In this document: in pieces, positions 1 through 41,028 of the stretch | Layout of the letters: every line of letters begins with the position of its first letter | Position numbering within the stretch: position 1 is the stretch's first letter | NCBI RefSeq assembly: GCF_902859745.1 | Contig: NZ_CADIJW010000002.1 | Location: forward strand, 248,001 to 312,000 | Direction of reading: 5' to 3' | DNA: 64,000 nt | From: Achromobacter dolens | GTDB lineage: Bacteria > Pseudomonadota > Gammaproteobacteria > Burkholderiales > Burkholderiaceae_B | The notes under the pieces: generated by a model | Databases searched by the model: none | What the model was told of the DNA's origin: nothing | Seen by the model: only the letters and a program-made list of their open reading frames with translations | Translations under genes and position numbers: made by a program

Positions 1-560
1 ACGAGCCCAGCAACCACCTGGACGTCGAGACGCGCGAGGCCCTGGCCGCCGCGCTGGCCGAGTTCGGCGGCAGCATGCTGCTGGTCTCGCATGATCGCCA
101 TCTGCTGCGCACCACCGTGGACAGCTTCTGGATCGTGGCCGACGGCGCCGTGCGCGAATTCGACGGCGACCTGGAGGACTACCGCGACTGGCTGGCGGCC
201 CGCAACGCCGGCGAACGCGCCGAGGCCGCCCGCGAGAACGCCGAGAACGGCGAGGCCGTGGTCGACCGCAAGGCGCAACGCCGCGCCGAGGCCGAGCAGC
301 GCCAACGCCTGTCGGCGCTGCGCAAGCCACTGGAAGCCAAGCTCGCCAAGGTCGAGGCCGAGATGGAGAAACTGCGGGCCAAGCTGCAGGCGCTGGACGG
401 CGTCATCGCCGACCCGGACCTGTATTCCGATGCGCGTCGCGCCGAGCGCCAGAAAGTCATGGCCGAACATGGCGAACACGGCAAGCGCATGGAGACGCTG
501 GAGGAACAGTGGCTGGAATTGCAGGGCTCGCTCGAAGAAATCGAACAGGGCGAAGCCTGA
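1..560 (+). CDS. ABC-F family ATPase (YheS-like), C-terminal part
   Basis: Only the end of the gene is present; the reading frame is open from base 3. It begins at the second ATPase cassette, with EPSNHLD (the Walker B/D-loop region) followed by the switch histidine in LLVSHDRHLLR. Next comes a segment GDLEDYRDWL typical of YheS, then a highly charged C-terminal helix pair rich in Glu, Lys and Arg that is predicted coiled coil. ABC-F proteins are soluble tandem-cassette ATPases that act on ribosomes rather than in membranes. The family signature is normally EPTNHLD; here the Thr is Ser. Assignment to the ABC-F family is firm; YheS rather than Uup is inferred from the linker after the H-switch. 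Confidence 0.9.
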   Translation, partial: EPSNHLDVETREALAAALAEFGGSMLLVSHDRHLLRTTVDSFWIVADGAVREFDGDLEDYRDWLAARNAGERAEAARENAENGEAVVDRKAQRRAEAEQRQRLSALRKPLEAKLAKVEAEMEKLRAKLQALDGVIADPDLYSDARRAERQKVMAEHGEHGKRMETLEEQWLELQGSLEEIEQGEA

Positions 561-619
561 GCCGCGGGCGGACGGCATGGGCCGTCCGCCCTTTCCCTCG
601 GGGCGCAACATCCAATAAC

Positions 620-638
620 AATAATAATTATCATTTAT
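620..638 (+). promoter_or_regulatory. Fur-box-like site upstream of the ECF sigma gene
   Basis: An AT-rich stretch, AATAATAATTATCATTTAT, stands out in GC-rich DNA 46 bases before the sigma-factor start. It matches the classical 19-base Fur consensus GATAATGATAATCATTATC at 13 positions. Iron repression of fecI-type genes by Fur is well established in this family, so this is the expected control point. Binding itself is inferred. Confidence 0.6.
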
Positions 639-683
639 AATTCGACGCGAATCTGACTCTATCTGGCGCGAGGCGTCAGCGAC

Positions 684-1172
684 ATGTCTTCGCTTACCGA
701 TGTATTTCTGCGGCACTACCGCGAAGTGCTGGGCTTTCTGGCCATGCGCACTGGCTCGCGCGACGTGGCCCAGGACTGCGCCCAGGACACCTGGATCAAG
801 CTGGCCGAGTTCCAGGACAAGACCCTGCCGGACAACCACCGCGCCTATGTCTTCCGCGTGGCGGCCAACATCGCCACCGACTGGCACCGCCGCCGGGGCC
901 GCGAACTGAACGTGGTGGCCGACTATGCCGCCACGCAGCCGCCCGCCTTCGAGGCCGACACGCTGGAAGTGGCTTCGGCCAACCAACTTCTGCGGCGGCT
1001 CGAAACCGCCCTGCTGCGCCAGCCGCGCCGCAGCCTCGACGTCTTTGTCCTGCATCGCCACGAAGGACTGACCTACCGCGCCATCGCCGAGCGTTTCGCG
1101 ATTTCGGTGAGCGCGGTCGAGAAACACATGATGCGCATCCTGCTGGCCTGCGACCAGGCGCTGTCGGCATGA
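684..1172 (+). CDS. FecI-type ECF sigma factor
   Basis: The 162-residue protein has the two-domain layout of extracytoplasmic-function sigma factors. Region 2 contains DVAQDCAQDTWIKLAE and the -10 recognition helix around AANIATDWHRRRG. Region 4 near the C-terminus is the helix-turn-helix GLTYRAIAERFAISVSAVEKH. FecI-type factors are released by a FecR regulator when a TonB receptor binds its ligand, and then transcribe the receptor gene. The gene overlaps the downstream fecR-like gene by 4 bases and is preceded by a Fur-box-like site, matching iron-responsive sigma genes. Its likely targets are the four TGAGG-N17-CGTCC promoters downstream; no such promoter is seen in front of this gene itself. 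Confidence 0.92.
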   Translation: MSSLTDVFLRHYREVLGFLAMRTGSRDVAQDCAQDTWIKLAEFQDKTLPDNHRAYVFRVAANIATDWHRRRGRELNVVADYAATQPPAFEADTLEVASANQLLRRLETALLRQPRRSLDVFVLHRHEGLTYRAIAERFAISVSAVEKHMMRILLACDQALSA

Positions 1173-2101
1173 GCAAGGCCAGCACCCCGGGCAATTCCGC
1201 CACCGCGGACGAGCAGGCCTCGCGCTGGGTGATCCGCCACAGCGGCCAGCCGCTCGATGCACAGGCGCAGGCCGAGTTCGACGCCTGGTACCACGCCGAT
1301 CCCCGCCATGCCGCCGCCTACGACAGGCTGGCGCGGGTGTGGCGCCGCATGGGCGAGATCGACCGCGGAAAATTGGCTGCCCGCCCGCCGCGCAAGCGCC
1401 ATACGGCGCTGGCGCTGGCACTCGTCGCCGCCACCGGCACGACCGCGTACGCGCTGCGCGACTTCCAGCCTGGCGCCGACTACGCAAGCGACACGCAGCC
1501 GCTGCGCGTCGCCCTGCCCGATGGCTCGCGCGCCATCCTGGACGCGCATTCGGCGATCGCCGTGGACTTCGGCCCCGACAGGCGCGAGGTGCGCCTGCTG
1601 GCCGGCCAGGCGCTGTTCGAGGCCGCGCCGCGCGGCACCGCAGGCCCGGCCTTCAGCGTGGTGACGGCGGACGCCAGCGCCACGGCCCTGGGCACCCGCT
1701 ACGCGGTCGCGCGCGACCGCGACGCGACGCGCGTCACCGTCTACACGCACCAGGTGGCGGTGCAATGCCTGGCCTGTGCGGACCGGCAACCGCAAACGCT
1801 GGACGCCGGGCAACGCATCGCGGTTTCGGCTGAAGGCATGGTCCAGGATGCGGCGCCGCATGAAACCGCGCCCGCCTGGAGCCAGGGAATGCTGGCCTTC
1901 AACAACACCGCATTGCCCGAGGCGGCCGCGCAGTTGGCGCGCTACACGGGCAAGCACATCCTGGTGCTGGGCGAGCTGGCGCGCGACACCCGAGTGTCGG
2001 GCACGGCCGGCGTCGCCGACCCCAAGCGGGCGCTCGACCTGCTGCTGGCGCAGACCAAGGTGCGCATCACCGACCTGCCGGGCCTGTTGATCCTGCGCTG
2101 A
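1169..2101 (+). CDS. FecR-family sigma regulator (anti-sigma factor)
   Basis: The 310-residue protein has the FecR order of domains. An N-terminal cytoplasmic DUF4880-like anti-sigma helix bundle (about residues 10-60, with WVIRHSGQPLD and DPRHAAAYDRL) is followed by one membrane segment (about 70-92). A periplasmic FecR core follows (about 105-200, with LPDGSRAILDAHS and TALGTRYAV), then a C-terminal STN-like domain ending TDLPGLLILR. The ATG overlaps the stop of the sigma gene as ATGA, so the two are translationally coupled. It probably contacts the STN domains of the three downstream receptors and controls the sigma factor across the inner membrane. There is one sigma/anti-sigma pair for three receptors, which is unusual and implies shared signalling. 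Confidence 0.92.
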   Translation: MSKASTPGNSATADEQASRWVIRHSGQPLDAQAQAEFDAWYHADPRHAAAYDRLARVWRRMGEIDRGKLAARPPRKRHTALALALVAATGTTAYALRDFQPGADYASDTQPLRVALPDGSRAILDAHSAIAVDFGPDRREVRLLAGQALFEAAPRGTAGPAFSVVTADASATALGTRYAVARDRDATRVTVYTHQVAVQCLACADRQPQTLDAGQRIAVSAEGMVQDAAPHETAPAWSQGMLAFNNTALPEAAAQLARYTGKHILVLGELARDTRVSGTAGVADPKRALDLLLAQTKVRITDLPGLLILR

Positions 2102-2151
2102 TCACGCCCCCCTGCCCGTTTCGATCAATGCCAATCGTTAAATAAGAATCA

Positions 2152-2167
2152 ATATAAATTATTCATC
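2152..2167 (+). promoter_or_regulatory. AT-rich element shared with the peroxidase promoter
   Basis: ATATAAATTATTCATC lies 10 bases upstream of the TGAGG element of receptor 1. The identical 16 bases occur at 11260-11275, also 10 bases before the TGAGG of the peroxidase gene. It partly resembles a degenerate Fur box (half-site ATTATTCA). Receptors 2 and 3 lack it. Confidence 0.5.
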
Positions 2168-2177
2168 AATTCTGCAA

Positions 2178-2204
2178 TGAGGGGTTGCGTCCTACGCCGC
2201 GTCC
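2178..2204 (+). promoter_or_regulatory. Predicted ECF promoter of TonB receptor 1
   Basis: TGAGG (2178-2182), 17 bases, then CGTCC (2200-2204). The same spacing and elements occur upstream of receptors 2 and 3 and the peroxidase gene. CGTC-type -10 elements are common for ECF sigma factors. Function is inferred from conservation of motif and spacing. Confidence 0.65.
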
Positions 2205-2234
2205 TACGGCTGACATCAACAGCAGCGTAGGACG
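2200..2234 (+). repeat. Inverted repeat joining -10 element and ribosome binding site
   Basis: CGTCCTACG (2200-2208) is exactly complementary to CGTAGGACG (2226-2234). The right arm contains the Shine-Dalgarno core AGGACG, 5 bases before the start codon at 2240. If CGTCC is the -10 element, the left arm may lie at or before the transcript start, so RNA folding is not assured. Confidence 0.55.
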
Positions 2235-2239
2235 TTTTC

Positions 2240-4870
2240 ATGCCTTTCCCTCTTGACCGCAAACGCCGGCCCGGCGCCTCGGCCGCCCTCCTTTGCGTCA
2301 TGCTGGCCATTGCCGCGCCCGTCATCGCCCAGCCGCCCGCGCGCACCATCGCGTATGACCTCCCGTCGCAGCCGCTGGGCGACGCCCTGCTCGCGCTCGG
2401 CCGCCAATCGGGCTTGGAGATCTCGTTCCCGCCAGCCGCCGTGGCCGGCAAGATGTCGCCCGCGCTGCAAGGCGAGTATTCCGCCCTGCTCGCGCTGGAC
2501 CGCCTGCTGGCCGGTTCCGGACTGGCGCTGCGCGCCGAAGGTCCGGGCCGCTATATCGTCTTCGTCGACAAGGCACATCCCTTCTCCACCTCGCGGCTGG
2601 AGCCGGTGCGTGTCTACGGCGAACAGGCCGGCGAACGCACCTATGGCCAGCAGGAGATCGCCGAAACGCCTTCCTCCAACCGCGACCTGAGCACGCTGGT
2701 GGCAAACCACCCGGCGGTGCGCACGAATCCGGGCGCGGCCGGCTCACAGAACCGCGGCTCGCTCAACGTCGAGGACATCTCCTTTCACGGCGCCAGCCCC
2801 TACCAGAACCTGTTCCAGATCGACGGCATCGACGCCACCAACCGCGTCGACCCGGCCAGCAAGAACCTCAACCTGCAGGTCGGCAACGTGCCCAGCAATC
2901 CGCAGTCGTACTTCGTCGACACCAGCCTGCTGGAAGCCGTGCGGGTGTACGACACCTTCGTGCCGGTCGAATACGGCCGCTTCACCGGTGGCGTGGTGGA
3001 TGCGCGGCTGCGCCGCTTTTCCGGCGAGAACCACTTTACATTCGACTACCGCTGGAACACCTCGAAGATGACGCGGCAGCAGGTGTCCGAGGGCGAGGAG
3101 AACAGCTGGGCACAGGGCCAGCCGGGCTATTCCCCTGAATGGAAGAAGCGCTTCTACTCGGCCGTGGGCGATTTCGCCTTCAACGACAAATCCGGCGTGG
3201 TGCTGGCCATGTCGCGCCGGGAATCCGACATCACACGCTGGAACATGGGCGTGGACGACAAGGGCCAGCCGCAGCAAGGCCAGGACACCTACCGCGACCG
3301 CGTCGACAACTTCCTGGGCAAGTTCAGCGTGCGCGCCAGCGCCGACACCACCGCTGACCTGACGCTCAAATACAGCGACCGCAGCGAGACCTTGTCGAGC
3401 TACCTGTTCCGCGACACGCACTGGGACAACAACCACGGCGCCTACGGCCTGAGCGGCAACCTGGACCACCTGTTCCAGGGCGGCCGCGTCTCGCTGCAGG
3501 CCGGCTGGGACCACGCCACCAGCGATCGCCAGTCGGTCGGCGATGAACTGGTGACCTATCAACCCTACCGACTGCCGCAATACACCGCGGGCGGCTTCGG
3601 CAAGGAGCAGACGCGGCAGGACACCTGGACCCTCAAGGGCCGCGTCGACCTGGATCCGGTGCGCACCGGCATCTTCACCCACAGCCTGTACGCGGGCGCC
3701 GATCTGCAACAGGTCGACGCCGGCTTCAAGCGCTTCCAGGATTCGTATTCGTTCCGCCGCGCCTACAACAACAAGGGCACCTACCAGGACTTCAGCAAGG
3801 TCCACTACCTGCCCGGCACGGTCAACGTGAAATACAACATGGCCAGCGTGTACCTGTCCGACCGCATCGAGTGGCAACGGCTGGCGCTGGACGCCGGGTT
3901 GCGCTACGACCGCGAGACCTTCCTGGGCAACGCCAACGTGTCGCCGCGTACCCGCCTGGAATGGGACGTGCTGGGATCGGGCGACACGCTGCTGAGCGCG
4001 GGCTGGTCGCGTTACTACGGCGGCGAGGTGCTGGAGACGGCGCTGGAGGCCGAGCGCAGCCGCCTGCGCCGCCAGGTGCTCGACAGCAAGGGCAGGCCCG
4101 TGGCCGATGGCGGCAAGGAGTACTTTGTGGATTACCGCGGCCTGCGCATGCCGTATGACGATGAATGGGCGGTGTCGCTGCGCCAGCGCATGGCAGGCAT
4201 CGAGGGCTTGCTGAGCTACGTGCATCGCAACGGCCGCGACCAATGGACCAAGAGCGGCACGCAGGCCACCGGCTACACCTACAACAACGACGGCTTCTCC
4301 ACCACCGACGGCGTCAGCCTGACGCTGCGCACGCTGGAGCCCTGGCGCCTGGGGCCGACGCGCTGGAACATGCAGGCATCGTGGAGCTGGCAGAAGCGCA
4401 AGACCAACGGCGACCTGGTCACGGGCTATACCGCCGATGCCCGCGATCCGGATGACCGGGTGATCTACAACGGCTCGGAGATCCGCGCCATCGACCTGCC
4501 GCCCAGCACCTTCTACCAGCCCCAGGTCGCTACGCTCACGCTGATCGGCGCCTACCCGCGCGCCGGCCTGACCTGGAGCAACAAGCTGAACTGGCGCAGC
4601 AAGCGCGACGCCACCATCTACGTTGGCGTCGGCCCGCGCCCGCAATACCTCGACCGCTACGAATCCGGCGAGCTGCCATCGTACTGGACCTGGGACACCA
4701 AGCTGGCGTGGCAGCCGACCTTCGCGCGCAACCTGGAATTCACGGTCGAAGTGCTGAACCTGCTGAACCGCATGCCGGCGGTCACGGCCAGCAATCCCAA
4801 CCTGAAGGCCAACCGCAGCACGTTCCAGTCGGGACGCGAACTGTGGCTGCAGGTGGGATATCGGTTCTGA
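2240..4870 (+). CDS. TonB-dependent receptor 1 with STN signalling domain
   Basis: The 876-residue protein starts with a signal peptide (cleavage after about IAAPVIAQ, residue 31). An STN domain follows (about 38-110, LPSQPLGDALLALGRQSGL), then a TonB-box-like segment (LEPVRVYGE), a plug domain and a 22-strand-type outer-membrane barrel ending in aromatic QVGYRF. STN domains signal to FecR, so this is both transporter and sensor. It is the first of three tandem paralogues and is overall closest to receptor 3. The plug carries conserved FQIDGIDATNRVDPA and GRFTGGVVDARL segments shared by all three. The substrate cannot be read from sequence; a ferric or other metal chelate is the family expectation. 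The start is supported by a Shine-Dalgarno AGGACG. Confidence 0.93.
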   Translation: MPFPLDRKRRPGASAALLCVMLAIAAPVIAQPPARTIAYDLPSQPLGDALLALGRQSGLEISFPPAAVAGKMSPALQGEYSALLALDRLLAGSGLALRAEGPGRYIVFVDKAHPFSTSRLEPVRVYGEQAGERTYGQQEIAETPSSNRDLSTLVANHPAVRTNPGAAGSQNRGSLNVEDISFHGASPYQNLFQIDGIDATNRVDPASKNLNLQVGNVPSNPQSYFVDTSLLEAVRVYDTFVPVEYGRFTGGVVDARLRRFSGENHFTFDYRWNTSKMTRQQVSEGEENSWAQGQPGYSPEWKKRFYSAVGDFAFNDKSGVVLAMSRRESDITRWNMGVDDKGQPQQGQDTYRDRVDNFLGKFSVRASADTTADLTLKYSDRSETLSSYLFRDTHWDNNHGAYGLSGNLDHLFQGGRVSLQAGWDHATSDRQSVGDELVTYQPYRLPQYTAGGFGKEQTRQDTWTLKGRVDLDPVRTGIFTHSLYAGADLQQVDAGFKRFQDSYSFRRAYNNKGTYQDFSKVHYLPGTVNVKYNMASVYLSDRIEWQRLALDAGLRYDRETFLGNANVSPRTRLEWDVLGSGDTLLSAGWSRYYGGEVLETALEAERSRLRRQVLDSKGRPVADGGKEYFVDYRGLRMPYDDEWAVSLRQRMAGIEGLLSYVHRNGRDQWTKSGTQATGYTYNNDGFSTTDGVSLTLRTLEPWRLGPTRWNMQASWSWQKRKTNGDLVTGYTADARDPDDRVIYNGSEIRAIDLPPSTFYQPQVATLTLIGAYPRAGLTWSNKLNWRSKRDATIYVGVGPRPQYLDRYESGELPSYWTWDTKLAWQPTFARNLEFTVEVLNLLNRMPAVTASNPNLKANRSTFQSGRELWLQVGYRF

Positions 4871-4948
4871 AGCGGGCCTGACACGGGGCGCAAGCATTCA
4901 TCCGGTCTGACTTCGACGCGTCACATGGCTTACCGGCCGGTTTGACGC

Positions 4949-4975
4949 TGAGGTTCCCCGTCGACCGCCGCGTCC
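4949..4975 (+). promoter_or_regulatory. Predicted ECF promoter of TonB receptor 2
   Basis: TGAGG (4949-4953), 17 bases, CGTCC (4971-4975), in the 140-base gap after receptor 1. It gives receptor 2 its own predicted start of transcription. The AT-rich element seen before receptor 1 is missing. Confidence 0.62.
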
Positions 4976-5006
4976 TATGGCTGGTTTCCAATCAGCCATA
5001 GGACGC
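4970..5006 (+). repeat. 14-base inverted repeat before receptor 2
   Basis: GCGTCCTATGGCTG (4970-4983) is perfectly complementary to CAGCCATAGGACGC (4993-5006) with a 9-base loop. The right arm includes the ribosome binding site of the gene starting at 5011. It is the longest of the three such repeats in the receptor leaders. Confidence 0.65.
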
Positions 5007-5010
5007 TCGC

Positions 5011-7647
5011 ATGCCTCTCTCATTCAACGGCCGTTTCCGCGCCAACGCGTCGGCCGCGATCTTCTGCGCCACGCTGGCCATGGCCGCCCCCGCCCTGGCC
5101 CAGTCGCCCAACCGCACCTTCGACTATGACATTCCAGCGCAACCGCTGGGCGACGCCTTGCTGGAACTGGGTCGCCTGTCCGGCCTGCAGATCTCGTTCC
5201 CGCCGGCCGCCGTGGCCAATAAGGCCTCGTCCGCCCTGCGGGGAGAAACGTCGGCGCTGGCGGCGCTGAACCAGTTGCTGGCAGGCTCCGGCCTGGCGCT
5301 GCGCGCCGACGGGCCGGGACGCTATATCGTCTTCGAGGACAAGGCCAATCCGTTCTCGGCATCGCGGCTTGAGCCGGTACGCGTCTACGGCGAGCAGATT
5401 GGCGGGCGCCTCTATAGCCGCGAGGAGATCGCGGAAACGCCGTCGTCCAACCGGGACCTGAGCACGTTGGTGGCGACGCATCCGGCAGTCCGCACCGACC
5501 CCGGCGCGGCGGGTTCGAAGAATCGGGGATCGCTGGACGTCGAGGAGATTTCATTCCATGGCGCCAGCCCCTACCAGAATCTGTTCCAGATCGATGGCAT
5601 GGACGCCACCAACCGCGTAGACCCGGCTAGCAAGAATCCGAACCTGGTCGTCAACAACGTGCCCAGCAATTCGCAGTCCTACTTCGTCGACACCAGTCTG
5701 CTGGAATCGGTGCAAGTGCATGACAGCTTCGTGCCTGTGGAATACGGTCACTTCACTGGCGGCGTGGTGGATGCAAAATTGCGCCGGTTCTCCGGGCAGA
5801 ACCATCTGAAGCTGGACTACCGTTGGAACAGCTCCAACATGACCCGACAGCGCACGGCGCATGGCGATGAACAAAAGTGGTCACAGGGCCACTTCGACTA
5901 CTCACCCAAGTGGAAGAAGAACTTCTATTCGGCGCTGGGCGATGTCGCATTCAGCGAAAAGGCCGGCATGGTATTGGCATTGTCTCGTCGCCAATCCGAC
6001 ATCACGCGGGCAGCCATGGGCGTTGACGACAAGGGTCAACCGGAGTTGCGCGAGGGAACCTACCGCAGCCAGATCGATAACCTTCTGGGCAAATTCAGTG
6101 TGCGTCCCGCCCCGGACACCGTCGCCGACCTGACGCTGAAATACAGCGAGTATCGCCAGGCCCTGGCCGACGCCTATTTCCGCGACACCACCTGGGACAA
6201 TTATCACAGCGGACGGGGCGTCGACGGCAATCTGGAACATCGATTCCAGGGCGGACGCTTTTCTCTGCAAGCGGGCTGGGATCGCGCCACCAGCCACCGG
6301 CAATCGGTTCGTGAAGAGTTTGTTTCCTATTTCACTCCGCCGATCAAAAAGGTCCAGTACGCGGTGGTGGGCTTTGGCAAGGAGCAGACGTTGCAGGACA
6401 CCGGCGTTCTCAAGGGCCGCGTTGACCTGGATCCGCTACGCACCGGCATGTTTGCCCACACCGTCTACGCGGGTTCAGAGCTGCGGCAGACCCACGCTCG
6501 ATTCAAGCGATTTCAGGATGCCTATGCGTACCGCCGCAGCCAGTTCGCCGATGGCACTGTCCAAGACAGCAATAGAACCCACTACCTTCCCGGGACGGCC
6601 GCGGTAAAGCATCACACTGCCAGCCTGTATCTGTCGGACCGCATCGAATGGCAACGACTGGCCCTGGATGCCGGGCTGCGCTACGACCGCGACAGCTTTC
6701 TTGGCAACGACAATCTGGCGCCCCGCACGCGCCTGGATTGGGACATGTTCGGAACGGACGACACCGTGCTGAGCATGGGATGGTCGCGCTACTACGGCGC
6801 ACAGATACTGGGCATCGCCATGGAGGCGGAGCGCGCGCGCCTGAAACTGCACGAGACGGACAAGAATGGAAACCCGATCGCGGATGGCCGCAAGCCGTAT
6901 ACGGTGGAATACAAGGGGTTACGCACGCCGTATGACGACGAATGGGCGATATCGCTGCGCCAACGAGTGGCGGGTCTGGAGGGCGCGCTGAACTATGTAC
7001 ATCGCAACGGGCGGGACCAGTGGACAAACGTCAACGTCAACGCCAACACCTCCCGATACAACAGTGATGGTCATTCCACGACCGACGGCATCAACATGAC
7101 CGTGCGTACGCTTCATCCGATTGCCCTGGGAAGGACCCGCTGGACCATGCGCGCCACCTGGGGCTGGCAGCGGCGCCGCGCCAACACCGAGTTGGCCAAG
7201 GGCTATAACGACCACGCGGGGGATCCTGATGAACAGGTGCTATATAACGACGCGCGGATTCGCGCCTTCGACCTGCCAACCAATTCGTTCTTCCAACCGC
7301 AAGTCGCCACCTTGACCCTGACCGGAGCCTACCCGGGCGCGGGCCTCACTTGGAGCAACCAATTCAACTGGCGCAGTGCGCGCGACGCGATTTTCTATAC
7401 AGGCAAAGGTCCGGCTCCGGAATTTCTCAACAGCTACACATCGGAGAAGTTGCCATCCTACTGGACCTGGGACACCAGGTTGAAATGGCAGCCCACGTTC
7501 GCACGCAACCTGGAAATGACCATCGAAGTTCTGAACCTGCTCAATCGCATGCCTGCGGTCACGGGCAATAGACCCAAACTCACGGCGGACCATCGCACCT
7601 ATCAATCCGGACGCGAGCTCTGGTTGCAGGTCGGCTATCGCTTCTGA
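5011..7647 (+). CDS. TonB-dependent receptor 2 with STN signalling domain
   Basis: This 878-residue paralogue of receptors 1 and 3 has a signal peptide (ending near AAPALAQ), an STN domain (IPAQPLGDALLELGRLSGL), TonB-box-like LEPVRVYGE, a plug, and a barrel ending QVGYRF. The plug is highly conserved with its neighbours, while barrel loops differ (for example around residues 430-450 and 540-560), suggesting a related but distinct ligand. Its central part is noticeably less GC-rich than the neighbouring paralogues (27 of 60 bases are G or C at 6301-6360), pointing to a different history. Its last 53 bases match receptor 3 exactly. It has its own ECF-type promoter, so it need not depend on read-through from receptor 1. 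Confidence 0.92.
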   Translation: MPLSFNGRFRANASAAIFCATLAMAAPALAQSPNRTFDYDIPAQPLGDALLELGRLSGLQISFPPAAVANKASSALRGETSALAALNQLLAGSGLALRADGPGRYIVFEDKANPFSASRLEPVRVYGEQIGGRLYSREEIAETPSSNRDLSTLVATHPAVRTDPGAAGSKNRGSLDVEEISFHGASPYQNLFQIDGMDATNRVDPASKNPNLVVNNVPSNSQSYFVDTSLLESVQVHDSFVPVEYGHFTGGVVDAKLRRFSGQNHLKLDYRWNSSNMTRQRTAHGDEQKWSQGHFDYSPKWKKNFYSALGDVAFSEKAGMVLALSRRQSDITRAAMGVDDKGQPELREGTYRSQIDNLLGKFSVRPAPDTVADLTLKYSEYRQALADAYFRDTTWDNYHSGRGVDGNLEHRFQGGRFSLQAGWDRATSHRQSVREEFVSYFTPPIKKVQYAVVGFGKEQTLQDTGVLKGRVDLDPLRTGMFAHTVYAGSELRQTHARFKRFQDAYAYRRSQFADGTVQDSNRTHYLPGTAAVKHHTASLYLSDRIEWQRLALDAGLRYDRDSFLGNDNLAPRTRLDWDMFGTDDTVLSMGWSRYYGAQILGIAMEAERARLKLHETDKNGNPIADGRKPYTVEYKGLRTPYDDEWAISLRQRVAGLEGALNYVHRNGRDQWTNVNVNANTSRYNSDGHSTTDGINMTVRTLHPIALGRTRWTMRATWGWQRRRANTELAKGYNDHAGDPDEQVLYNDARIRAFDLPTNSFFQPQVATLTLTGAYPGAGLTWSNQFNWRSARDAIFYTGKGPAPEFLNSYTSEKLPSYWTWDTRLKWQPTFARNLEMTIEVLNLLNRMPAVTGNRPKLTADHRTYQSGRELWLQVGYRF

Positions 7648-7648
7648 C
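7596..7648 (+). repeat. 53-base identical 3' end, copy in receptor 2
   Basis: This segment, covering the last codons, the stop and one base beyond, is identical base for base to 10319-10371 in receptor 3. The upstream sequences of the two genes diverge much more, including at synonymous sites, which suggests recombination between paralogues. Confidence 0.85.
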
Positions 7649-7688
7649 GAAATCGGACAATATGACCGACCGATCGTTGCTACGCCGC

Positions 7689-7715
7689 TGAGGTCCTGGC
7701 TGGCTTGCGGCGTCC
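7689..7715 (+). promoter_or_regulatory. Predicted ECF promoter of TonB receptor 3
   Basis: TGAGG (7689-7693), 17 bases, CGTCC (7711-7715), in the 101-base gap between receptors 2 and 3. It has the same spacing as the other three sites. Confidence 0.62.
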
Positions 7716-7746
7716 CACTGCCGACATCCACGGAACCCGGGACGCC
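7709..7746 (+). repeat. 8-base inverted repeat before receptor 3
   Basis: GGCGTCCC (7709-7716) pairs with GGGACGCC (7739-7746), which ends two bases before the ATG at 7749 and contains the GGGACG ribosome binding site. It is the counterpart of the repeats at 2200-2234 and 4970-5006, with a changed sequence but preserved complementarity. Confidence 0.5.
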
Positions 7747-7748
7747 TC

Positions 7749-10370
7749 ATGCCACGCCATTTTCCCCCCACACGCACATCCGCGCTTCTTTTCTGCGCCT
7801 TGCTGGCCCTCGCCGCTCCCGTGACGGCCCAACCGCTTACCGACACCATCCGCCTCTGCATCCCCTCCCTGCCGCTGGGCGACGCGCTGGTCGAACTGGG
7901 ACGCCAATCCGGGCTCGAAATCTCGTTCCCGCCCGAGGCGGTGGCGAACAAGATGTCGCCGGTCGTGCGGGGCCGGTTTCCAGCCCGGCTGGCGCTCGAC
8001 CGGATGCTGGAAGGCTCGGGCCTGGCGCTGCGCGCGGACGGCGCGAACCGCTACATCATCTATGTCGACAAGTCGGCCCCAGCCAGCACTTCGCGGCTGG
8101 AGCCCGTTCGCGTCTATGGCGATCAAGTCGGCGAGCGTTTCTACGACCAGCAAGAGATCGCCGCCACGCCATCGTCCAACCGCGACCTCAGCACGCTGGT
8201 GGCGAATCACCCCGCGGTGCGTACCAACCCAGGCGCGGCGGGCTCTCAAAATCGCGGCTCGCTTGATGTCGAGGACATTTCGTTCTACGGCGCCAGCCCC
8301 TACCAGAACCTGTTCCAGATCGATGGTATCGACGCCACCAATCGCGTCGACCCGGCCAACAAGCGGCTGGCCCAGGCGGGGGGCAACGTGCCCAGCAATC
8401 CGCAGTCGTACTTCATCGACACCCTCCTGCTGCAAACCGTGCAGGTGCGCGACAGTTTCATCCCGGTCGAGTACGGACGTTTCAACGGCGGCGTCGTCGA
8501 TGCGCGGCTGCGACGCTTTTCCGGCGAGAGCCACCTGAAGTTAGATTACCGCTGGAATACATCCAACATGACCCAGCAGCGCGTCTCGCCCGGCCAGGAG
8601 AGCAAGTGGGCCGAGGGAGAACCCGGCTTCACGCCGCGATGGAAAAAGCGCTTCTATTCGGCCGTGGCCGATATCGCCGTCAACGACAGGGCAGGCCTGG
8701 TGCTGGCGATGTCGCGCCGGCAGTCCAGGATCGAACGCTGGATCATGCGCGTGGACGACAAGGACAAGCCCCTGCGCACGCCCAACACCTATGGCGATCG
8801 CGTCGATAATTTCCTGGGTAAGTTCAGCGTGCGTGCCAGCGCCGACACGGTGGCCGACCTGACGCTCAAATACAGTGACCGCGGAGAAACGCTGGCCAGC
8901 AACCTGTTCCGCGACACGCATTGGGCCAATAATCATGGCGCATATGGCGTCAGCGGCAACCTGGAACACCGCCTCGGCGGGGGGCGCCTGACGCTGCAAG
9001 CCGGCTGGGACCACGCCATGAGCAACCGCCGCTCGATGAGCCGCGAATGGGTTACGACGCGCCCCTATGGGTTGCCGTCGTACTTCAAGGGCGGTTTCGG
9101 CCGCGAGCAGAAGCAGCAGGACACTTTGGTGCTCAAGAGCCGTATCGATCTCGATCCGCTGAGCACCCGTACATTCACGCACAACATCTACGCGGGGATC
9201 GACGTGCAACAGGTCGACGCCGCCTTCAAGCGCCCGCAACTGTCGACCGCCTACACGCGCACCTACCGCAGCGTCGACGCCTATGCCGATACCAACTTGT
9301 CGCTGTGGCAGCCGGGCACCGTGCGCGCTCGTTCGCGCACGGCCGCGCTGTACTTTTCCGACCGCATCGAGTGGCGGCGCCTGGCGCTGAATGCAGGGCT
9401 GCGTTATGACCGCGAGAGCCTGTTCCGCAGCAACAACGTGGCGCCGCGCACGCGCCTGGATTGGGACGTGTTCGGTTCGGGCGACACCTTGCTGAGCGGC
9501 GGCTGGTCGCGCTACTACGGCGGTCCGGTCCTGGAAACCGCGCTCGAGGCCGGACGCCTGCGGCTGTTGAAACGCGTGACGAACATCAAGGGCGAGCCGG
9601 TACCCGCCGAAGAGCAGGATTTCTCCGTCGACTACAGCGGCCTGCGCATGCCGCATGACGACGAGTGGGCCCTGTCGCTGCGCCAGCGCATGGCAGGACT
9701 GGAAGGCCTGCTGAGCTATGTCCGCCGCATCGGCCGGCAGCAATGGATCAAAGCCGGCAAGATCAGTACGGGCTTCAAATACCGCAACGGCGGCGGCTCC
9801 ACCACTGACGCCGTCAGCCTGACGTTGCGCACGCTGGCACCCTGGCATGCCGGCCCCACGCGCTGGACCATGCAGGCATCCTGGAGTTGGCAGAAACGCA
9901 AGACCAACGCAGATCTGGTCACGGGGTATGGCGGCGACGCGCGCGGCCCTGAAGAGCGTGTGATTTACAACGGCTCGGAGATCCGAGTCATCGACCTGCC
10001 GCCCAGGAGTTTCCACCAGCCCCAGGTCGCCACGCTCGCGCTCACCGGCGCCTGCCCCAAAGCCGGGCTGGCCTGGAGCAACATGCTGAACTGGCGCAGC
10101 AAGCGCGACGGCGTCATGTATATCGGCAAGGGTCCCGCACCATACCGGCTGGATAGCTACAAGTCGGGCGACCTGCCCTCCTACTGGACCTGGGACACGC
10201 AGCTCACCTGGCAGCCCACCTTCCTGCCGCGCCTGGAACTGACGGTGGAAATCCTGAACCTGCTCAACCGCATGCCCGCGATTGTCGCAAGCAATCCCAA
10301 CCTGGCGGCCGACAACACCACCTATCAATCCGGACGCGAGCTCTGGTTGCAGGTCGGCTATCGCTTCTGA
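7749..10370 (+). CDS. TonB-dependent receptor 3 with STN signalling domain
   Basis: The 873-residue third tandem receptor has a signal peptide (ending near APVTAQ) and an STN domain (IPSLPLGDALVELGRQSGL). These are followed by TonB-box-like LEPVRVYGD, a plug with FQIDGIDATNRVDPA and FNGGVVDARL, and a barrel ending QVGYRF. The barrel is closer to receptor 1 than to receptor 2 in most segments, but its last 53 bases are identical to those of receptor 2, suggesting local gene conversion. It has a Cys in the STN strand (RLCIPS) and another in the barrel (TGACPKAG) where receptors 1 and 2 have none. It is likely an outer-membrane importer and sensor acting through the upstream FecR. Confidence 0.92.
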   Translation: MPRHFPPTRTSALLFCALLALAAPVTAQPLTDTIRLCIPSLPLGDALVELGRQSGLEISFPPEAVANKMSPVVRGRFPARLALDRMLEGSGLALRADGANRYIIYVDKSAPASTSRLEPVRVYGDQVGERFYDQQEIAATPSSNRDLSTLVANHPAVRTNPGAAGSQNRGSLDVEDISFYGASPYQNLFQIDGIDATNRVDPANKRLAQAGGNVPSNPQSYFIDTLLLQTVQVRDSFIPVEYGRFNGGVVDARLRRFSGESHLKLDYRWNTSNMTQQRVSPGQESKWAEGEPGFTPRWKKRFYSAVADIAVNDRAGLVLAMSRRQSRIERWIMRVDDKDKPLRTPNTYGDRVDNFLGKFSVRASADTVADLTLKYSDRGETLASNLFRDTHWANNHGAYGVSGNLEHRLGGGRLTLQAGWDHAMSNRRSMSREWVTTRPYGLPSYFKGGFGREQKQQDTLVLKSRIDLDPLSTRTFTHNIYAGIDVQQVDAAFKRPQLSTAYTRTYRSVDAYADTNLSLWQPGTVRARSRTAALYFSDRIEWRRLALNAGLRYDRESLFRSNNVAPRTRLDWDVFGSGDTLLSGGWSRYYGGPVLETALEAGRLRLLKRVTNIKGEPVPAEEQDFSVDYSGLRMPHDDEWALSLRQRMAGLEGLLSYVRRIGRQQWIKAGKISTGFKYRNGGGSTTDAVSLTLRTLAPWHAGPTRWTMQASWSWQKRKTNADLVTGYGGDARGPEERVIYNGSEIRVIDLPPRSFHQPQVATLALTGACPKAGLAWSNMLNWRSKRDGVMYIGKGPAPYRLDSYKSGDLPSYWTWDTQLTWQPTFLPRLELTVEILNLLNRMPAIVASNPNLAADNTTYQSGRELWLQVGYRF

Positions 10371-10371
10371 C
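10319..10371 (+). repeat. 53-base identical 3' end, copy in receptor 3
   Basis: This is the second copy of the segment at 7596-7648. Receptor 1 encodes nearly the same peptide in this region with different synonymous codons, so protein constraint alone does not explain the identity. Confidence 0.85.
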
Positions 10372-10422
10372 CGACAAATCAGACGATGCGGCATGGAGCG
10401 CCGCGGCCTTCGTCCCTAACAT

Positions 10423-10449
10423 GCGCCGTGGCCATCCCGGCCACGGCGC
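10423..10449. repeat. Perfect 11-base stem-loop after receptor 3
   Basis: GCGCCGTGGCC (10423-10433) pairs with GGCCACGGCGC (10439-10449) around a 5-base loop. It lies 52 bases past the receptor 3 stop and about 50 before the next gene. It could terminate the receptor transcript, although no clear U-tract follows, or sit in the leader of the next gene. Confidence 0.6.
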
Positions 10450-10498
10450 GGGTTCTCCATCGGGACGCCAGTCGCGCCGTCACGCAGGAGCTATTTGC

Positions 10499-11161
10499 AT
10501 GGCATTGAGCCGATCCCAGACCGAAATCAAAGCCGCCATCGCGGAACACGGCCGGCAGCGCGGCTTCAGCCCCCCGACCATCCAGATCGCGGCGGACATT
10601 GCCTACATCGAATCGGCGTTCGGCGCCTCGCCGCGGTGCCCCGACGCCAGCTCAAGCGCATCGGGCCTGTTCCAGTACACGGACGAGGCCTGGTACGCGC
10701 ATCATCAAGCCGTGGGCGAAAAGGACGCCCCGGGCAGCCAGATCGCCGCTTTCTACACCGACCTGGCGACCTACGCGGCCTGGTACCACAGTCCCGCCAC
10801 CAATCGCCATATCCCCGACGACATGCCGCTGGGGGAATTCGTCTTCGTCATGCACCACGGCGGGCGGGGCGGACCGGTCTTGTTCAAGGACACCGCGCGC
10901 GATCTCTATCGCAAGCATGTCACCGACGATACCCGGTTGCTGACCGCCACCCATCCCGCCCCCCGCCCCGGCGCGCTCGTGCTCGACGCCGAGGCTTACA
11001 CCGGCTATCCGGTGGCGGGTGACAGCGCGGGATGCATCAAGATCGGCCCGAACGGCGTGGCGTATATCGACTACATCCTGGAACCCCTGCTGTCGCGAGC
11101 GGAACGGCGCGGCATCGTCGAGCGGGATCCCGCCGGGGCATTCCGCCTTCTTGGCGAATGA
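10499..11161 (+). CDS. Lysozyme/transglycosylase-like protein without signal peptide
   Basis: The 220-residue protein looks like a lysozyme-superfamily fold. A helix ending in Glu38 (IAYIESAFG) is followed by a Ser-rich turn and SASGLFQYTDEAW (about residues 53-65), the arrangement seen around the catalytic Glu of soluble transglycosylases. No signal peptide or membrane segment is visible. The start at 10499 is chosen because AGGAG sits 8 bases upstream; an in-frame ATG at 10421 would add 26 low-complexity residues and lies in the stem-loop. It has no TGAGG-N17-CGTCC promoter. The role is unknown: a cytoplasmic or secreted peptidoglycan-active enzyme, possibly a toxin or effector. The family call is tentative. 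Confidence 0.55.
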   Translation: MALSRSQTEIKAAIAEHGRQRGFSPPTIQIAADIAYIESAFGASPRCPDASSSASGLFQYTDEAWYAHHQAVGEKDAPGSQIAAFYTDLATYAAWYHSPATNRHIPDDMPLGEFVFVMHHGGRGGPVLFKDTARDLYRKHVTDDTRLLTATHPAPRPGALVLDAEAYTGYPVAGDSAGCIKIGPNGVAYIDYILEPLLSRAERRGIVERDPAGAFRLLGE

Positions 11162-11259
11162 GGGACCGGCAAGGCAAAGCCAGCCACGACGCGGCGCCAA
11201 TCAAAAGGCGCCTGGCACGGGTCATCGGCCCTCATGCGCCAATCAAAAAATCGATATCC

Positions 11260-11275
11260 ATATAAATTATTCATC
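11260..11275 (+). promoter_or_regulatory. AT-rich element, copy upstream of the peroxidase gene
   Basis: Identical to 2152-2167 and placed at the same 10-base distance from a TGAGG element. Flanking bases are also similar (both regions begin CCAATC about 15-20 bases earlier), so the two promoters look like duplicates. It may be a weak Fur site. Confidence 0.5.
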
Positions 11276-11285
11276 GATTGCGTGC

Positions 11286-11312
11286 TGAGGTATTGCAATC
11301 GTCGCAGCGTCC
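11286..11312 (+). promoter_or_regulatory. Predicted ECF promoter of the di-haem peroxidase gene
   Basis: TGAGG (11286-11290), 17 bases, CGTCC (11308-11312). This is the fourth copy of the pattern found before the three receptors. The leader after it (CTACGCCTGACACCAAC) also resembles that of receptor 1, but the SD-bearing right arm of the inverted repeat is degraded here. Confidence 0.65.
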
Positions 11313-11346
11313 TACGCCTGACACCAACGCGACACGGAACGTATCG

Positions 11347-12732
11347 ATGCCCCTGCGTGGCAAATCCCGGCTCCGGCAGAACGCCCTGGCCGCCTTCCTG
11401 CATGCCATTCCGCTGGCCCTCGTGCTCGCCACCCCGTCCACCGCTTCTGGCCAGCAGCGCGCCGCCACGCCATCCGGCATCGCGCCCAGCGCCGCCGCTT
11501 GCCACGACCCGGCGGGCTGGAACATCGCCTGCCTGCGCGCGCGCTATTCCGGACCCCCGGCCGGTTGGCCCGCGCCCACCATCGACGTCGGCGTGCAATG
11601 GCATGAATGGGCGCCGGTCCCGCCCGTCGCCGACCCGCCGCTGCAATGGACCGCCGCGAATTCCGGCCAGGCCGAACTGGCCGCCGACGTGGCGCGGCCG
11701 GCAATCGTGGCGCTGGGTCAGATGCTGTTCTTCGATACCCGCCTGTCGCGCAAGGGCCAAATCTCCTGTGCCTCCTGCCACCAACCGCAGCGCGCCTTCA
11801 CGGACGGTCTGCCGCTCGCGGTGGGCGAGGACAAGCTGATGGGCCGGCGTCGCTCCACGCCGCTGTATGCCGCGCCGTTCGCGCCCCGGCTGTTCTGGGA
11901 CGGGCGCGCGTCCAGCCTCAAGGAGCAGGTGATGGGGCCGCTGCACGACCCGCGGGAAATGAACCATGACGCCGCCGGGGCAGTGGCGCGGCTGCGGGAG
12001 ACCGACATGTATCCCGCGCGCTTCCTGGACGCGTTCGGCGGCGCGACGGCGGCGTCTTCTCCAGCGACTGCATCGGCTTCATCAACAGTTGCGCCGGCTT
12101 CATCAGCGGCTGGCTCAACGGCATCGGCATCGGCATCGGCATCGGCATCGGCATCGGCATCGGCGGCAATGATACCGACAGCTCAAGCGCCTGGGGCATC
12201 GACCACGGCATCCGCCATCGACGCCGATCGCCTGGCGCGCGCACTGGCCGCCTACGTGGCCTCGCTGCGCCCGGGGAAGACCCGCTTCGACGACTTCCTC
12301 GCTGGCCGCGTTGATGCGCTGGACGACACCGAGCTACTGGGCCTGCACCTGTTCCGCACGCAGGCGCGCTGCATGAACTGCCACAATGGCCCCTTGCTCA
12401 CCGACCATCAGTTCCACAACATCGGCCTGTCGTTCTACGGCCGCCGCAACCAGGACCTGGGGCGCTATGAAGCCACGCGCGACCCCGCCGACCTGGGCAA
12501 GTTCCGCACGCCGAGCCTGCGCAACGTGGCGCAGGCCGGCCCGTGGATGCACAACGGCCTGTTCCCGGATCTGCGGGGGCTGCTGCGGATGTACAACGCC
12601 GGCATCGGCCGAGAGACGCCGCCGGCCGATCCCCCGGACCCGTATGCGCCGCGCAAGTCGGAACACATCAAGCCGCTCGACCTGAGCCCGGCCGAGATCG
12701 ACGCCCTGCTGGCGTTCCTGAAAACGTTGTAG
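11347..12732 (+). CDS. Di-haem cytochrome c peroxidase / MauG-family protein
   Basis: The 461-residue protein has an N-terminal signal peptide (ending around STASGQQ). Two c-type haem motifs are CASCH (141-145) and CMNCH (342-346), the two-domain layout of bacterial di-haem peroxidases. FFDTRLS, FWDGRASSLKEQ and the C-terminal FRTPSLRNVAQAGPWMHNG segments are family landmarks. It acts in the periplasm, reducing peroxide or oxidising a protein or small-molecule substrate. A Ser/Ala/Thr-rich insertion of about 55 residues lies between the haem domains (about 233-290) and contains a hexanucleotide repeat. The start at 11347 is preferred over an upstream in-frame ATG because it gives a clean signal peptide downstream of the promoter. 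The shared promoter links it functionally to the TonB receptors. Confidence 0.9.
   Translation: MPLRGKSRLRQNALAAFLHAIPLALVLATPSTASGQQRAATPSGIAPSAAACHDPAGWNIACLRARYSGPPAGWPAPTIDVGVQWHEWAPVPPVADPPLQWTAANSGQAELAADVARPAIVALGQMLFFDTRLSRKGQISCASCHQPQRAFTDGLPLAVGEDKLMGRRRSTPLYAAPFAPRLFWDGRASSLKEQVMGPLHDPREMNHDAAGAVARLRETDMYPARFLDAFGGATAASSPATASASSTVAPASSAAGSTASASASASASASASAAMIPTAQAPGASTTASAIDADRLARALAAYVASLRPGKTRFDDFLAGRVDALDDTELLGLHLFRTQARCMNCHNGPLLTDHQFHNIGLSFYGRRNQDLGRYEATRDPADLGKFRTPSLRNVAQAGPWMHNGLFPDLRGLLRMYNAGIGRETPPADPPDPYAPRKSEHIKPLDLSPAEIDALLAFLKTL
12121..12162 (+). repeat. Hexanucleotide microsatellite GCATCG x7 inside the peroxidase gene
   Basis: Seven perfect tandem copies of GCATCG encode alternating Ala-Ser at residues 259-272. 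The unit is a multiple of three, so gain or loss of copies changes linker length without breaking the frame. Confidence 0.95.
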
Positions 12733-12756
12733 CGGACGCCGCCGACCCCGCGCCGC

Positions 12757-12790
12757 GGAAAAAAGAATGGCCGCGGCTGGAGCCGCGGCC
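12757..12790 (-). terminator. Rho-independent terminator after the chorismate mutase gene
   Basis: GGCCGCGGC (12769-12777) pairs with GCCGCGGCC (12782-12790) around 4 bases. On the minus strand the stem is followed by a run of T (12763-12758 on the plus strand is A-rich). It lies about 60 bases beyond the stop of the minus-strand gene and also faces the peroxidase stop. Confidence 0.8.
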
Positions 12791-12850
12791 ATGGAACTGC
12801 CGTTGCGCATGGTGACGGCGGCCAAGCAGGCCGCCGGCCACCCCCACGCA

Positions 12851-13156
12851 TCACGAGTAGGGACGCTCGCGCAACCGGGTGTGGTGATCGACCACCGTGT
12901 CGATCACTTCGCGCAGGATGGTTTCGGCCAGGGCCGGGGGCACGCCGGCCTCTTCGGCCAGGCGCCGGATGCGCTGGACCTGCTGGTCTTCGCGCACCGG
13001 GTCCACCAGGTCCATGTCGTTGGCTTGCTTGAGCTCGCCGATCATGTCCGTGCAGCGAAAACGCACGCCCAGCAGCAGGATGATCTGCTGGTCGATCTCG
13101 TCGACTTCGGCGCGCAGCGATGCCAGTTCGGCTTTCGGGGAGTCTTGATTGGCCAT
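12851..13156 (-). CDS. Chorismate mutase, AroQ type
   Basis: The 101-residue all-helical protein carries the AroQ chorismate mutase pattern: LRAEVDEIDQQIILLLGVRF followed by the helix with IGELKQAN, then DPVREDQQVQRIRRLAEEAG. The Arg, Lys and Glu residues of these helices form the active site in the family. It converts chorismate to prephenate for phenylalanine and tyrosine synthesis, though stand-alone AroQ proteins of this size can have other isochorismate-type roles. The ATG at 13156 follows the uvrD stop after 5 bases, so it is the last gene of a three-gene operon. A longer in-frame reading up to 13477 runs through uvrD and is rejected. Confidence 0.85.
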   Translation of the reverse strand: MANQDSPKAELASLRAEVDEIDQQIILLLGVRFRCTDMIGELKQANDMDLVDPVREDQQVQRIRRLAEEAGVPPALAETILREVIDTVVDHHTRLRERPYS

Positions 13157-13161
13157 GTCTA

Positions 13162-15450: not shown

Positions 15451-16655
15451 GCCGCGTAGCGGCGCAGACGTTGAGCGAATTGCTCGAGCCCGGCGATGCC
15501 GCTTTGCTGGGCGCGCTGGCACCAGGCCTGCAGGTCATGGAGGAGCTGTTCGCTGCTGGCGCTGGAGCTTTCCCAGATACGGCCGAGTTCGCGGCGCATC
15601 TGCACCAGCGTCGACAGCGACTTGTTCTGGGCGATGGCCTTGTCCACGGCTTCGAGCTGTTCCGGCTGGAGGATGTCCTCGTTGCGGTGGATGGCGCGGC
15701 GCACCTTGTGCAGCTTGGTCCAGCCGCAATCGGCGTTGCCGTCCTGGCGCGAGGCCTTCAGCTTGGCGAGTTCCTCGCGGGCGGCGCTCTTGATCACGTC
15801 CGCGTAGCGGGCCATGACTTCGTAGCGGTGCGTGATCACGCCCTGCAGCGTGCGCAGGTCGATGCCGGTCTTGGAATCATCCAGCTTGAGCTTGGGCGCG
15901 ACCTTCTTGATCTTGGCCAGGCCCAGGAACTTCAGGATGTTGATGTAGCACCAGCCAATGTCGAACTCGTACCACTTGGCCGAAAACTTGGCCGACGTGC
16001 CGTGGGCGTGGTGGTTGTTGTGCAGCTCTTCGCCGCCGATCACGATGCCCCAGGGGAACACGTTGGTGCTGGTGTCCGGGCTGTTGTAGTTGCGGTAGCC
16101 CCAGTAGTGGCCGATGCCGTTGACGACGCCAGCCGCCCAGAAGGGGATCCAGGCCATCTGCACCGCCCACACCGTGACGCCGATCGCGCCGAACAGGGCG
16201 ATGTCGATGGCGAGCATGGTCAGCACGCCCCACAGGCTGTGCTTGCTGTAGACGTTGCGTTCGAGCCAGTCGTCAGGCGTGCCGTGGCCGAACTTGGCCA
16301 TGGTTTCCTTGTTGTTGGATTCTTCGCGGTAGAGCTCGGCGCCGCGGAACAGCACCTTCCAGATGCCGAACAGGATGGGCGAATGGGGATCGCCTTCCTT
16401 TTCGCACTTGGCGTGGTGCTTGCGGTGGATGGCAACCCATTCCTTGGTGACCATGCCGGTCGTCATCCAGAGCCAGAAGCGGAAGAAGTGCATGACGGCC
16501 GGATGCAGGTCCAGGCCCCGGTGCGCCTGGCTGCGGTGCAGGAAGACGGTGACGGACACAATGGTGATGTGCGTCATGACCAGGGTGAAAACGACGATCT
16601 GCCACCAAGTGGCTTGGGTCAGACCGCCGGCAATGAAGGAGAGGATGTAATCCAT
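15447..16655 (-). CDS. Acyl-CoA/fatty acid delta-9-type desaturase
   Basis: The 402-residue integral membrane protein has the three histidine boxes of the membrane di-iron desaturases: HRSQAH (40-45), HRKHH (77-81) and HNNHH (212-216). Paired hydrophobic segments lie around residues 5-37, 145-180 and near box 3. It introduces a double bond into acyl chains, adjusting membrane fluidity. The C-terminal extension after about residue 260 is soluble, charged and helical, and longer than in the minimal bacterial enzymes. It is the first gene of an operon with uvrD and the chorismate mutase gene, overlapping uvrD by 4 bases. Confidence 0.92.
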   Translation of the reverse strand: MDYILSFIAGGLTQATWWQIVVFTLVMTHITIVSVTVFLHRSQAHRGLDLHPAVMHFFRFWLWMTTGMVTKEWVAIHRKHHAKCEKEGDPHSPILFGIWKVLFRGAELYREESNNKETMAKFGHGTPDDWLERNVYSKHSLWGVLTMLAIDIALFGAIGVTVWAVQMAWIPFWAAGVVNGIGHYWGYRNYNSPDTSTNVFPWGIVIGGEELHNNHHAHGTSAKFSAKWYEFDIGWCYINILKFLGLAKIKKVAPKLKLDDSKTGIDLRTLQGVITHRYEVMARYADVIKSAAREELAKLKASRQDGNADCGWTKLHKVRRAIHRNEDILQPEQLEAVDKAIAQNKSLSTLVQMRRELGRIWESSSASSEQLLHDLQAWCQRAQQSGIAGLEQFAQRLRRYAA

Positions 16656-40916: not shown

Positions 40917-41013
40917 CCGGCCGCGGCAGGCCCGGATGGGGCGACGCCATTGGCCCGCCCTATCCGGGGCTTGCTGAAAATCAATTTGACGGTCATGCCG
41001 GAGATATGGAAAA

Positions 41014-41028
41014 TGAGAACCATTCTCA
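41014..41028 (+). promoter_or_regulatory. Fur-type palindrome at mntH
   Basis: TGAGAACCATTCTCA is a 6-3-6 inverted repeat with the hallmark TGAGAA...TTCTCA arms of Fur boxes in GC-rich proteobacteria. It ends 9 bases before the mntH ATG, so a bound repressor would block the ribosome-binding/early transcribed region. Confidence 0.72.

Follow-up and report, generated by a model that had tools for sequence, protein, structure and literature searches.

A conserved TGAGG-N17-CGTCC motif, a probable promoter, beside a FecI-like sigma gene in Achromobacter, and a possible fold-back of its −10 region onto the ribosome-binding site

Genes and promoter-like sites at the locus

We analyzed a 64,000-nucleotide stretch of the Achromobacter dolens genome (contig NZ_CADIJW010000002.1, positions 248,001 to 312,000), hereafter the window, in which a short motif, TGAGG-N17-CGTCC, recurs beside a gene for an extracytoplasmic function (ECF) sigma factor. 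The sigma factor is FecI-like, has regions 2 and 4 according to Pfam, and finds its nearest named ortholog in A. ruhlandii (98%). Its gene adjoins one for a FecR-domain regulator and is followed on the same strand by three TonB-dependent receptor genes and a di-haem peroxidase gene (Table 1). An earlier note on this DNA had reported four copies of the motif, each upstream of one of the receptors or the peroxidase. All four are exact, lie on the + strand with a spacer of 17, and precede these genes with CGTCC-to-ATG gaps of 35, 35, 33, and 34 nucleotides (nt); we call them P1 to P4. The peroxidase start used here is the ATG at 11347; a mechanically derived TTG open reading frame (ORF) opens slightly upstream of P4.

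Receptor 1 scores above the cut-off of the signaling domain STN (29.0; cut-off, 28.4), and receptors 2 and 3 fall slightly below it (27.4 and 27.7). The sequence relatives of receptor 1 include 6ofr and the FusA structure 4zgv, a likeness to FusA-type receptors. The peroxidase matches both the MbnH and the MauG models; with 172.8 bits against a curated cut-off of 362.85 for TIGR04039, it lies well below the threshold of the MbnH family as defined there.

Table 1. Features of the locus, in window coordinates
Feature	Position	Strand	Basis or remark
Fur-like site upstream of the sigma gene	614..638	.	15/19 and 14/19 against the usual Fur consensus; among the three best scores in the window
FecI-like ECF sigma gene	684..1172	+	Pfam Sigma70_r2 and Sigma70_r4_2, above cut-off
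FecR-like anti-sigma/regulator gene	1169..2101	+	Pfam FecR, 55.6 bits; DUF4880, 40.5 bits
AT-rich element upstream of P1, weakly Fur-like	2132..2167	.	12/19; strongly conserved in 27 orthologs
P1, putative promoter of receptor 1	2178..2204	+	exact match and conservation
P1 5' hairpin arm (−10 and following bases), predicted +1 ~2212	2199..2212	+	folding; +1 from usual ECF spacing
P1 3' hairpin arm with Shine-Dalgarno AGGA (2229-2232)	2220..2235	+	folding
TonB-dependent receptor 1, N-terminal STN domain	2240..4870	+	Pfam
P2, putative promoter of receptor 2	4949..4975	+	exact match and conservation
P2 predicted hairpin, 13-bp perfect core, Shine-Dalgarno AGGA (5000-5003)	4970..5006	+	folding
TonB-dependent receptor 2	5011..7647	+	Pfam
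P3, putative promoter of receptor 3	7689..7715	+	exact match and conservation
P3 possible hairpin GGCGTCCC/GGGACGCC covering the Shine-Dalgarno, weakly indicated	7709..7746	+	z −3.1 in short leader; z −0.4 in gene scan
TonB-dependent receptor 3	7749..10370	+	Pfam; STN and Plug slightly below cut-offs
Gene without Pfam match, between receptor 3 and peroxidase	10499..11161	+	
P4, putative promoter of the peroxidase	11286..11312	+	exact match; AT-rich block upstream (~11253-11275) resembling that of P1; hairpin poor
Di-haem peroxidase, MauG/MbnH-like, two CxxCH	11347..12732	+	domain and profile searches

With at most one mismatch, the motif has 8 matches in the window against 6.3 expected from shuffled sequence (32 of 100 shuffles reach at least 8); the exact co-oriented set alone exceeds chance. 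Across the genome, where the earlier note had proposed to look for further hits, there was no enrichment by count: 10 exact matches occur in 6.29 Mb, and the reversed pattern also has 10. Genome-wide counting was dropped as proof of the motif since the count equals that of the reversed control; we take the motif as real because of its position and conservation, despite the failure of this count test. Among the six exact matches outside the locus, four lie inside mechanical ORFs, one lies 34 nt upstream of a doubtful TTG ORF of 202 amino acids, and one lies 83 nt upstream of an ORF that by eye resembles a short-chain dehydrogenase and may be a redox gene. This last ORF is the one candidate for the suggestion that outside copies precede uptake or redox genes. 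A relaxed but longer form of the motif found three matches in this genome, all within the locus, and no further regulon members. The regulon found is thus local rather than genome-wide.

Distribution of the motif within and outside Achromobacter

Our sample of the genus comprised 43 genomes. Orthologs of the sigma gene (79-98%) are present in 26 others besides this one, giving 27 sigma-bearing genomes, and a stretch of 13-17 kb was compared for all 26. The receptor is present in exactly the same 27 genomes, and the order sigma-fecR-receptor-peroxidase is conserved across the loci. These fall into two types: in six, there are three receptors and the peroxidase has a putative promoter to itself; in the other 21, a single receptor is directly followed by the peroxidase, whose ATG overlaps the receptor end in 15 of the 21 (by one fixed start pattern; the other six were judged by eye). 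The gene without a Pfam match occurs in five of the six three-receptor loci, with a second copy in locus L043, and in none of the 21 one-receptor stretches.

Every one of the 27 loci has the exact motif ahead of its first receptor, always with the 17-bp spacing. Across these orthologous P1s, all 10 box bases are fixed and each of the 17 spacer positions varies, the spacers having a mean pairwise identity of 43%; after CGTCC, about a dozen bases are nearly invariant. The P1 spacer of the window (2183-2199) contains an extra GCGTCCTACG copy, and similar, partly imperfect copies are found in the other five three-receptor loci. Extended by YAYG, the motif has 41 matches in 28 of the 43 genomes, 37 of them in the locus and 4 strays (reversed control, 6). 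It is present in the locus of every sigma-bearing genome (27/27), and the 16 sigma-less genomes, two of which are only 57% and 78% complete, hold one stray copy (Fisher p ~1e-10, with related species counted as independent).

In the six three-receptor loci, the exact motif precedes all 24 receptor and peroxidase genes, and the 21 peroxidases of the one-receptor loci have no copy of their own. Because P2 to P4 are confined to 6 of the 27 loci, where they precede paralogous receptors and the peroxidase, they look like the spread of one promoter rather than independent recruits. The earlier note had regarded the four genes as a likely regulon of the adjacent sigma factor; conservation and sigma co-occurrence speak for this, with the qualification that the regulon is only local and its members do not appear to have been recruited independently. 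P4 and P1 have the AT-rich block as well as the promoter core in common, and the N terminus of the window peroxidase differs from that of the one-receptor loci and by eye resembles a receptor start. These likenesses suggest that the peroxidase captured a receptor promoter and start by duplication.

Outside the genus, TGAGG-N17-CGTC precedes the receptor at the sigma relatives of two Bordetella, Azoarcus, Allopusillimonas, and two Zoogloea. Two Caulobacter loci have an N16 spacer, an Achromobacter paralog and a Burkholderia have TAGGG-N17-CGTC (by eye), and the Pseudomonas form is TGAGG-N17-CGTGTAG. Among 61 related loci, the pattern T[GA][AG]GG-N16-18-CGT matched 54 times in 51 of them; 52 of these matches have N17, and at least three of the 54 lie off the promoter by position. 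Many relatives of the sigma factor, down to ~33-35% identity, retain TGAGG-N17-CGT upstream of a receptor. Several results nonetheless count against the motif as the promoter of such sigma factors at large. Ten of the 61 loci have no match; among the best profile matches of the phylum-wide sample, 4 of 24 with a FecR gene carry the motif (N16-18), two of them at N17, five loci without a recognised FecR having been left out; and four close matches (L246-L249) are without it. Few loci carry it in the class and order samples, and the other FecR loci of this genome mostly show T-rich stretches instead (by eye). Judging from these sequences, the TGAGG-N17-CGT box goes with part of the FecI family.

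Complementarity between the −10 and Shine-Dalgarno regions

From the −10 element onward, the bases form an inverted repeat with the Shine-Dalgarno (SD) region upstream of the ATG. Neither this repeat nor the Fur-like sites described below figured in the earlier note. The repeat is nearly as long at P1 as at P2, shorter at P3, and poor at P4. If CGTCCT lies at −12 to −7, the usual arrangement in ECF promoters, the predicted +1 would be at about 2212, 4983, and 7723 for P1 to P3, where the 5' arm ends or close to it; RNA started by the sigma factor would therefore be without this arm.

The 45 promoters of the genus represent 31 distinct leaders (28 P1-P3 types and 3 P4 types). In every one of the 28 P1-P3 types, the predicted fold pairs the −10 arm with the SD arm, and 18 of the 31 leaders, P4 included, are as stable as the best 5% of their mononucleotide shuffles. 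When 29 window genes were scanned by one fixed procedure, receptor 2 (z −7.0) and receptor 1 (z −5.9) stood apart from the next gene (z −2.2). Arms also pair better with their own partner than with exchanged ones: permutations as good numbered 0 of 20,000 for the 31 leaders, 0 of 100,000 for 13 classes or lineages (P4 and misses included), and 553 of 100,000 for six non-Achromobacter lineages alone, a set without Pseudomonas, Azotobacter, Caulobacter, Burkholderia, and the Achromobacter paralog. The non-Achromobacter leaders had been inspected by eye before the arm-exchange test and the test of 13 rows outside P1-P4. In the latter, four rows reach 0.05 by arm shuffling (B. trematum, Azoarcus, Allopusillimonas, and G323) and three by leader shuffling, with a combined p of ~1e-4 either way; a Burkholderia start too near the promoter to be informative is counted here, and the near-duplicates L142, L162, L189, and L190 are left out. 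The predicted exposure of the SD, compared between RNA from the gene's own start and read-through RNA, is 0.25 versus 0.03 at P1 (n=27) and 0.33 versus 0.003 at P2 (n=6).

Other results weigh against a role for the pairing. Of the three P4 types, two show weak pairing and all three are no more stable than shuffled sequence; the gene scan gives ordinary values for the peroxidase (z −0.8, p 0.20) and for receptor 3 (z −0.4, p 0.34); and predicted SD exposure is unchanged at P3 (0.21 versus 0.20) and P4 (0.49 versus 0.47). The gain from pairing with the proper arm lies between promoter classes; within a class, own and sister arms average −16.1 and −15.8. Pairing is not significant in 9 of the 13 outside rows, namely, Bordetella genomosp. 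5, Zoogloea, three Pseudomonas, Azotobacter, Caulobacter, Burkholderia, and the Achromobacter paralog, and at the other FecI loci of this genome it reaches p≤0.05 in 3 of 19. When 18 leaders are placed on a fixed alignment, their covariation is no higher than that of shuffles (0.061 versus 0.064), and the RNAalifold consensus keeps four pairs with no double change; we read this as an invariant core with outer pairs whose register differs from class to class. Finally, TCC in the −10 and GGA in the SD pair somewhat for trivial reasons.

Fold-back was rejected as a universal rule of FecI leaders: p≤0.05 is reached by 4 of 20 in this genome (receptor 1 included), by 6 of 18 from the class and order samples, and by 3 of 56 from named contigs, mostly Pseudomonas. 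This survey dropped 19 loci without a following ORF or start, as well as loci without a recognised FecR; its class and order samples repeat some loci of this genome, and the starts are wrong for at least L138 and L201. Pseudomonas leaders (L250, L251, and L147-L199) have an inner TGCGA..TCGCA palindrome by eye, often with CTACAC complementary to the −10, and their pairing is not significant. Rfam searches returned no family match in the window, and six source sequences gave only tRNAs, in two of them. Between 500 and 13200, no forward terminator-like site was found and seven lie on the other strand against 8.5 expected from shuffles, the scan finding no more sites than shuffled sequence does.

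At the sigma gene, the best Fur-like 19-mer of the 27 loci matches 12-16 of 19 positions. An AT-rich block lies ~11 bp upstream of TGAGG at P1, with a similar one at P4 and none at P2 and P3; 25 positions of the window match the Fur consensus as well as the P1 block does. A second strong Fur-like site (41009-41027, 15/19) lies just ahead of 41038, a position picked as a gene start. The sigma gene has no clear SD; a short hairpin CTGGCGC..GCGTCAG (663-679) sits slightly upstream of its ATG and is present in six of nine loci folded. Elsewhere in the window, a GGCATC repeat inside the peroxidase gene (12120-12165) encodes a Ser-Ala run, and an ORF on the − strand (15447-16655) combines a fatty acid desaturase match (residues 17-219) with a piece of an ISL3-type transposase (277-401), as a fusion or insertion remnant.

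A probable sigma-dependent promoter and its possible second role

TGAGG (−35), the 17-bp spacer, and CGTC(C) (−10) very probably form a promoter read by the adjacent FecI-like sigma factor, because the boxes and their spacing are conserved, they co-occur with the sigma gene, and the motif is kept with related sigma factors elsewhere. Signaling by the loaded receptor via STN and FecR is established for FecIRA (PMC9249621). Here, Fur would probably repress the sigma and fecR genes when iron is plentiful; once loaded with its ligand, a receptor would pass the signal from its STN domain to FecR, freeing the sigma factor to fire P1 to P4. At P1 and P2, the −10 arm, predicted to be left untranscribed, is complementary to the SD region. 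RNA from the ECF promoter would start in the loop and be translatable, and transcripts running in from fecIR or from a preceding receptor would include the arm, whose folding back would cover the translation start; receptors 1 and 2 would then be produced solely from a sigma-driven start of their own. With no forward terminator-like site found along the locus, such read-through, whether out of fecIR or from one receptor to the next, is plausible. We tentatively propose that the −10 arm may double as an anti-Shine-Dalgarno, an insulator embedded in the promoter that would guard same-strand receptor clusters against read-through; we consider this possible but less likely than not, and lowered our estimate slightly because receptor 3 is ordinary in the gene scan.

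It is quite possible, if short of probable, that these sites are promoters only. The inverted repeat would then arise as a side effect of having an invariant −10 with a final TCC some 30 nt ahead of a GGA-type ribosome site, and duplication in the cluster would have kept or spread it. The core pairs GTCC/GGAC are nearly invariant and thus uninformative, which suits this account, as do the shuffle-like covariation on the fixed alignment and the unremarkable scores of receptor 3 and the peroxidase. Yet the pairing at P1 and P2 spans 13 bp or more, far beyond the length of an SD, and sets both apart from 27 other window genes; arms swapped across lineages pair less well than a leader's own, and Allopusillimonas, B. 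trematum, and Azoarcus pair using different sequences.

As for the downstream arm, the main rival is a DNA element near the start (a downstream promoter element or a regulator site) that affects transcription rather than translation, since mutations downstream of the E. coli fecA start strongly reduce transcription (PMC9249621). The nearly invariant bases after CGTCC in P1 agree with such an element. However, the arms change together between promoter classes, unlike a fixed protein site, and an antisense copy of the promoter was rejected, a promoter-like antisense match occurring at 1 of 45 promoters. We consider a DNA element unlikely. Still less credible, indeed very improbable, is a transcription start upstream of TGAGG, with both boxes in the RNA and the hairpin acting as a riboregulator in all transcripts. 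The conserved AT-rich block at P1 and its counterpart at P4 could be taken to support it, but P2 and P3 keep both boxes without such a block, invariant boxes around a fixed-length spacer with free letters resemble a promoter, no sigma-70-like match was found in 500-13200, and the window is without an Rfam family. Chance recurrence of a short pattern, which the genome-wide count would allow, is refuted by the exact spacing kept before all 27 first receptors together with the sigma co-occurrence, and deserves practically no credence.

The circuit is of a known kind; its G-rich −35, fixed 17-bp spacing, and possible fold-back leader set this variant apart. It shares with E. coli FecI-FecR-FecA the order sigma-FecR-receptor, the FecR and STN domains, a Fur-like site at the sigma gene, and a separate receptor promoter. 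It differs in its TGAGG −35 (the DNA upstream of E. coli fecA is without TGAGG-N17-CGTC) and in having up to three receptors and a peroxidase, fecBCDE-like genes not being among those identified. Fold-back masking of a ribosome site is known from IS10 and from early transcripts of phage T4 gene e, in which an arm of the read-through RNA hides the site and RNA from the proper promoter is without the arm. Here, in contrast, the arm would be the −10 region of a presumed ECF promoter, the genes are chromosomal uptake genes, and the function is predicted.

Pseudomonas aeruginosa HxuI-HxuR-HxuA is the same kind of circuit, although the MEME motif given for it in PMC8768829 is MTGAAWRACDWKKTTTWKCADTCGCRWWT, not TGAGG-N17-CGT. 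In PMC6180224, the motifs of ECF05-10 are described as AT-rich, and no promoter motif could be found for S. meliloti FecI. Neither a TGAGG-N17-CGT consensus nor a −10/SD fold-back for FecI was found among the search results listed or in passages of PMC9249621, PMC8768829, PMC3597554, PMC2729926, PMC12772443, PMC6180224, and PMC5493296, a search that did not extend to the main ECF reclassification paper; the consensus may already be in print.

TGAGG-N17-CGT offers a testable −35/−10 rule for a FecI subfamily, here in beta- and gamma-proteobacteria. If the fold-back is true, it would account for the silence, when no ligand is present, of receptors that lie downstream of an iron-regulated sigma operon with no forward terminator-like site found in between, and it would put a second, translational lock inside a transcriptional promoter.

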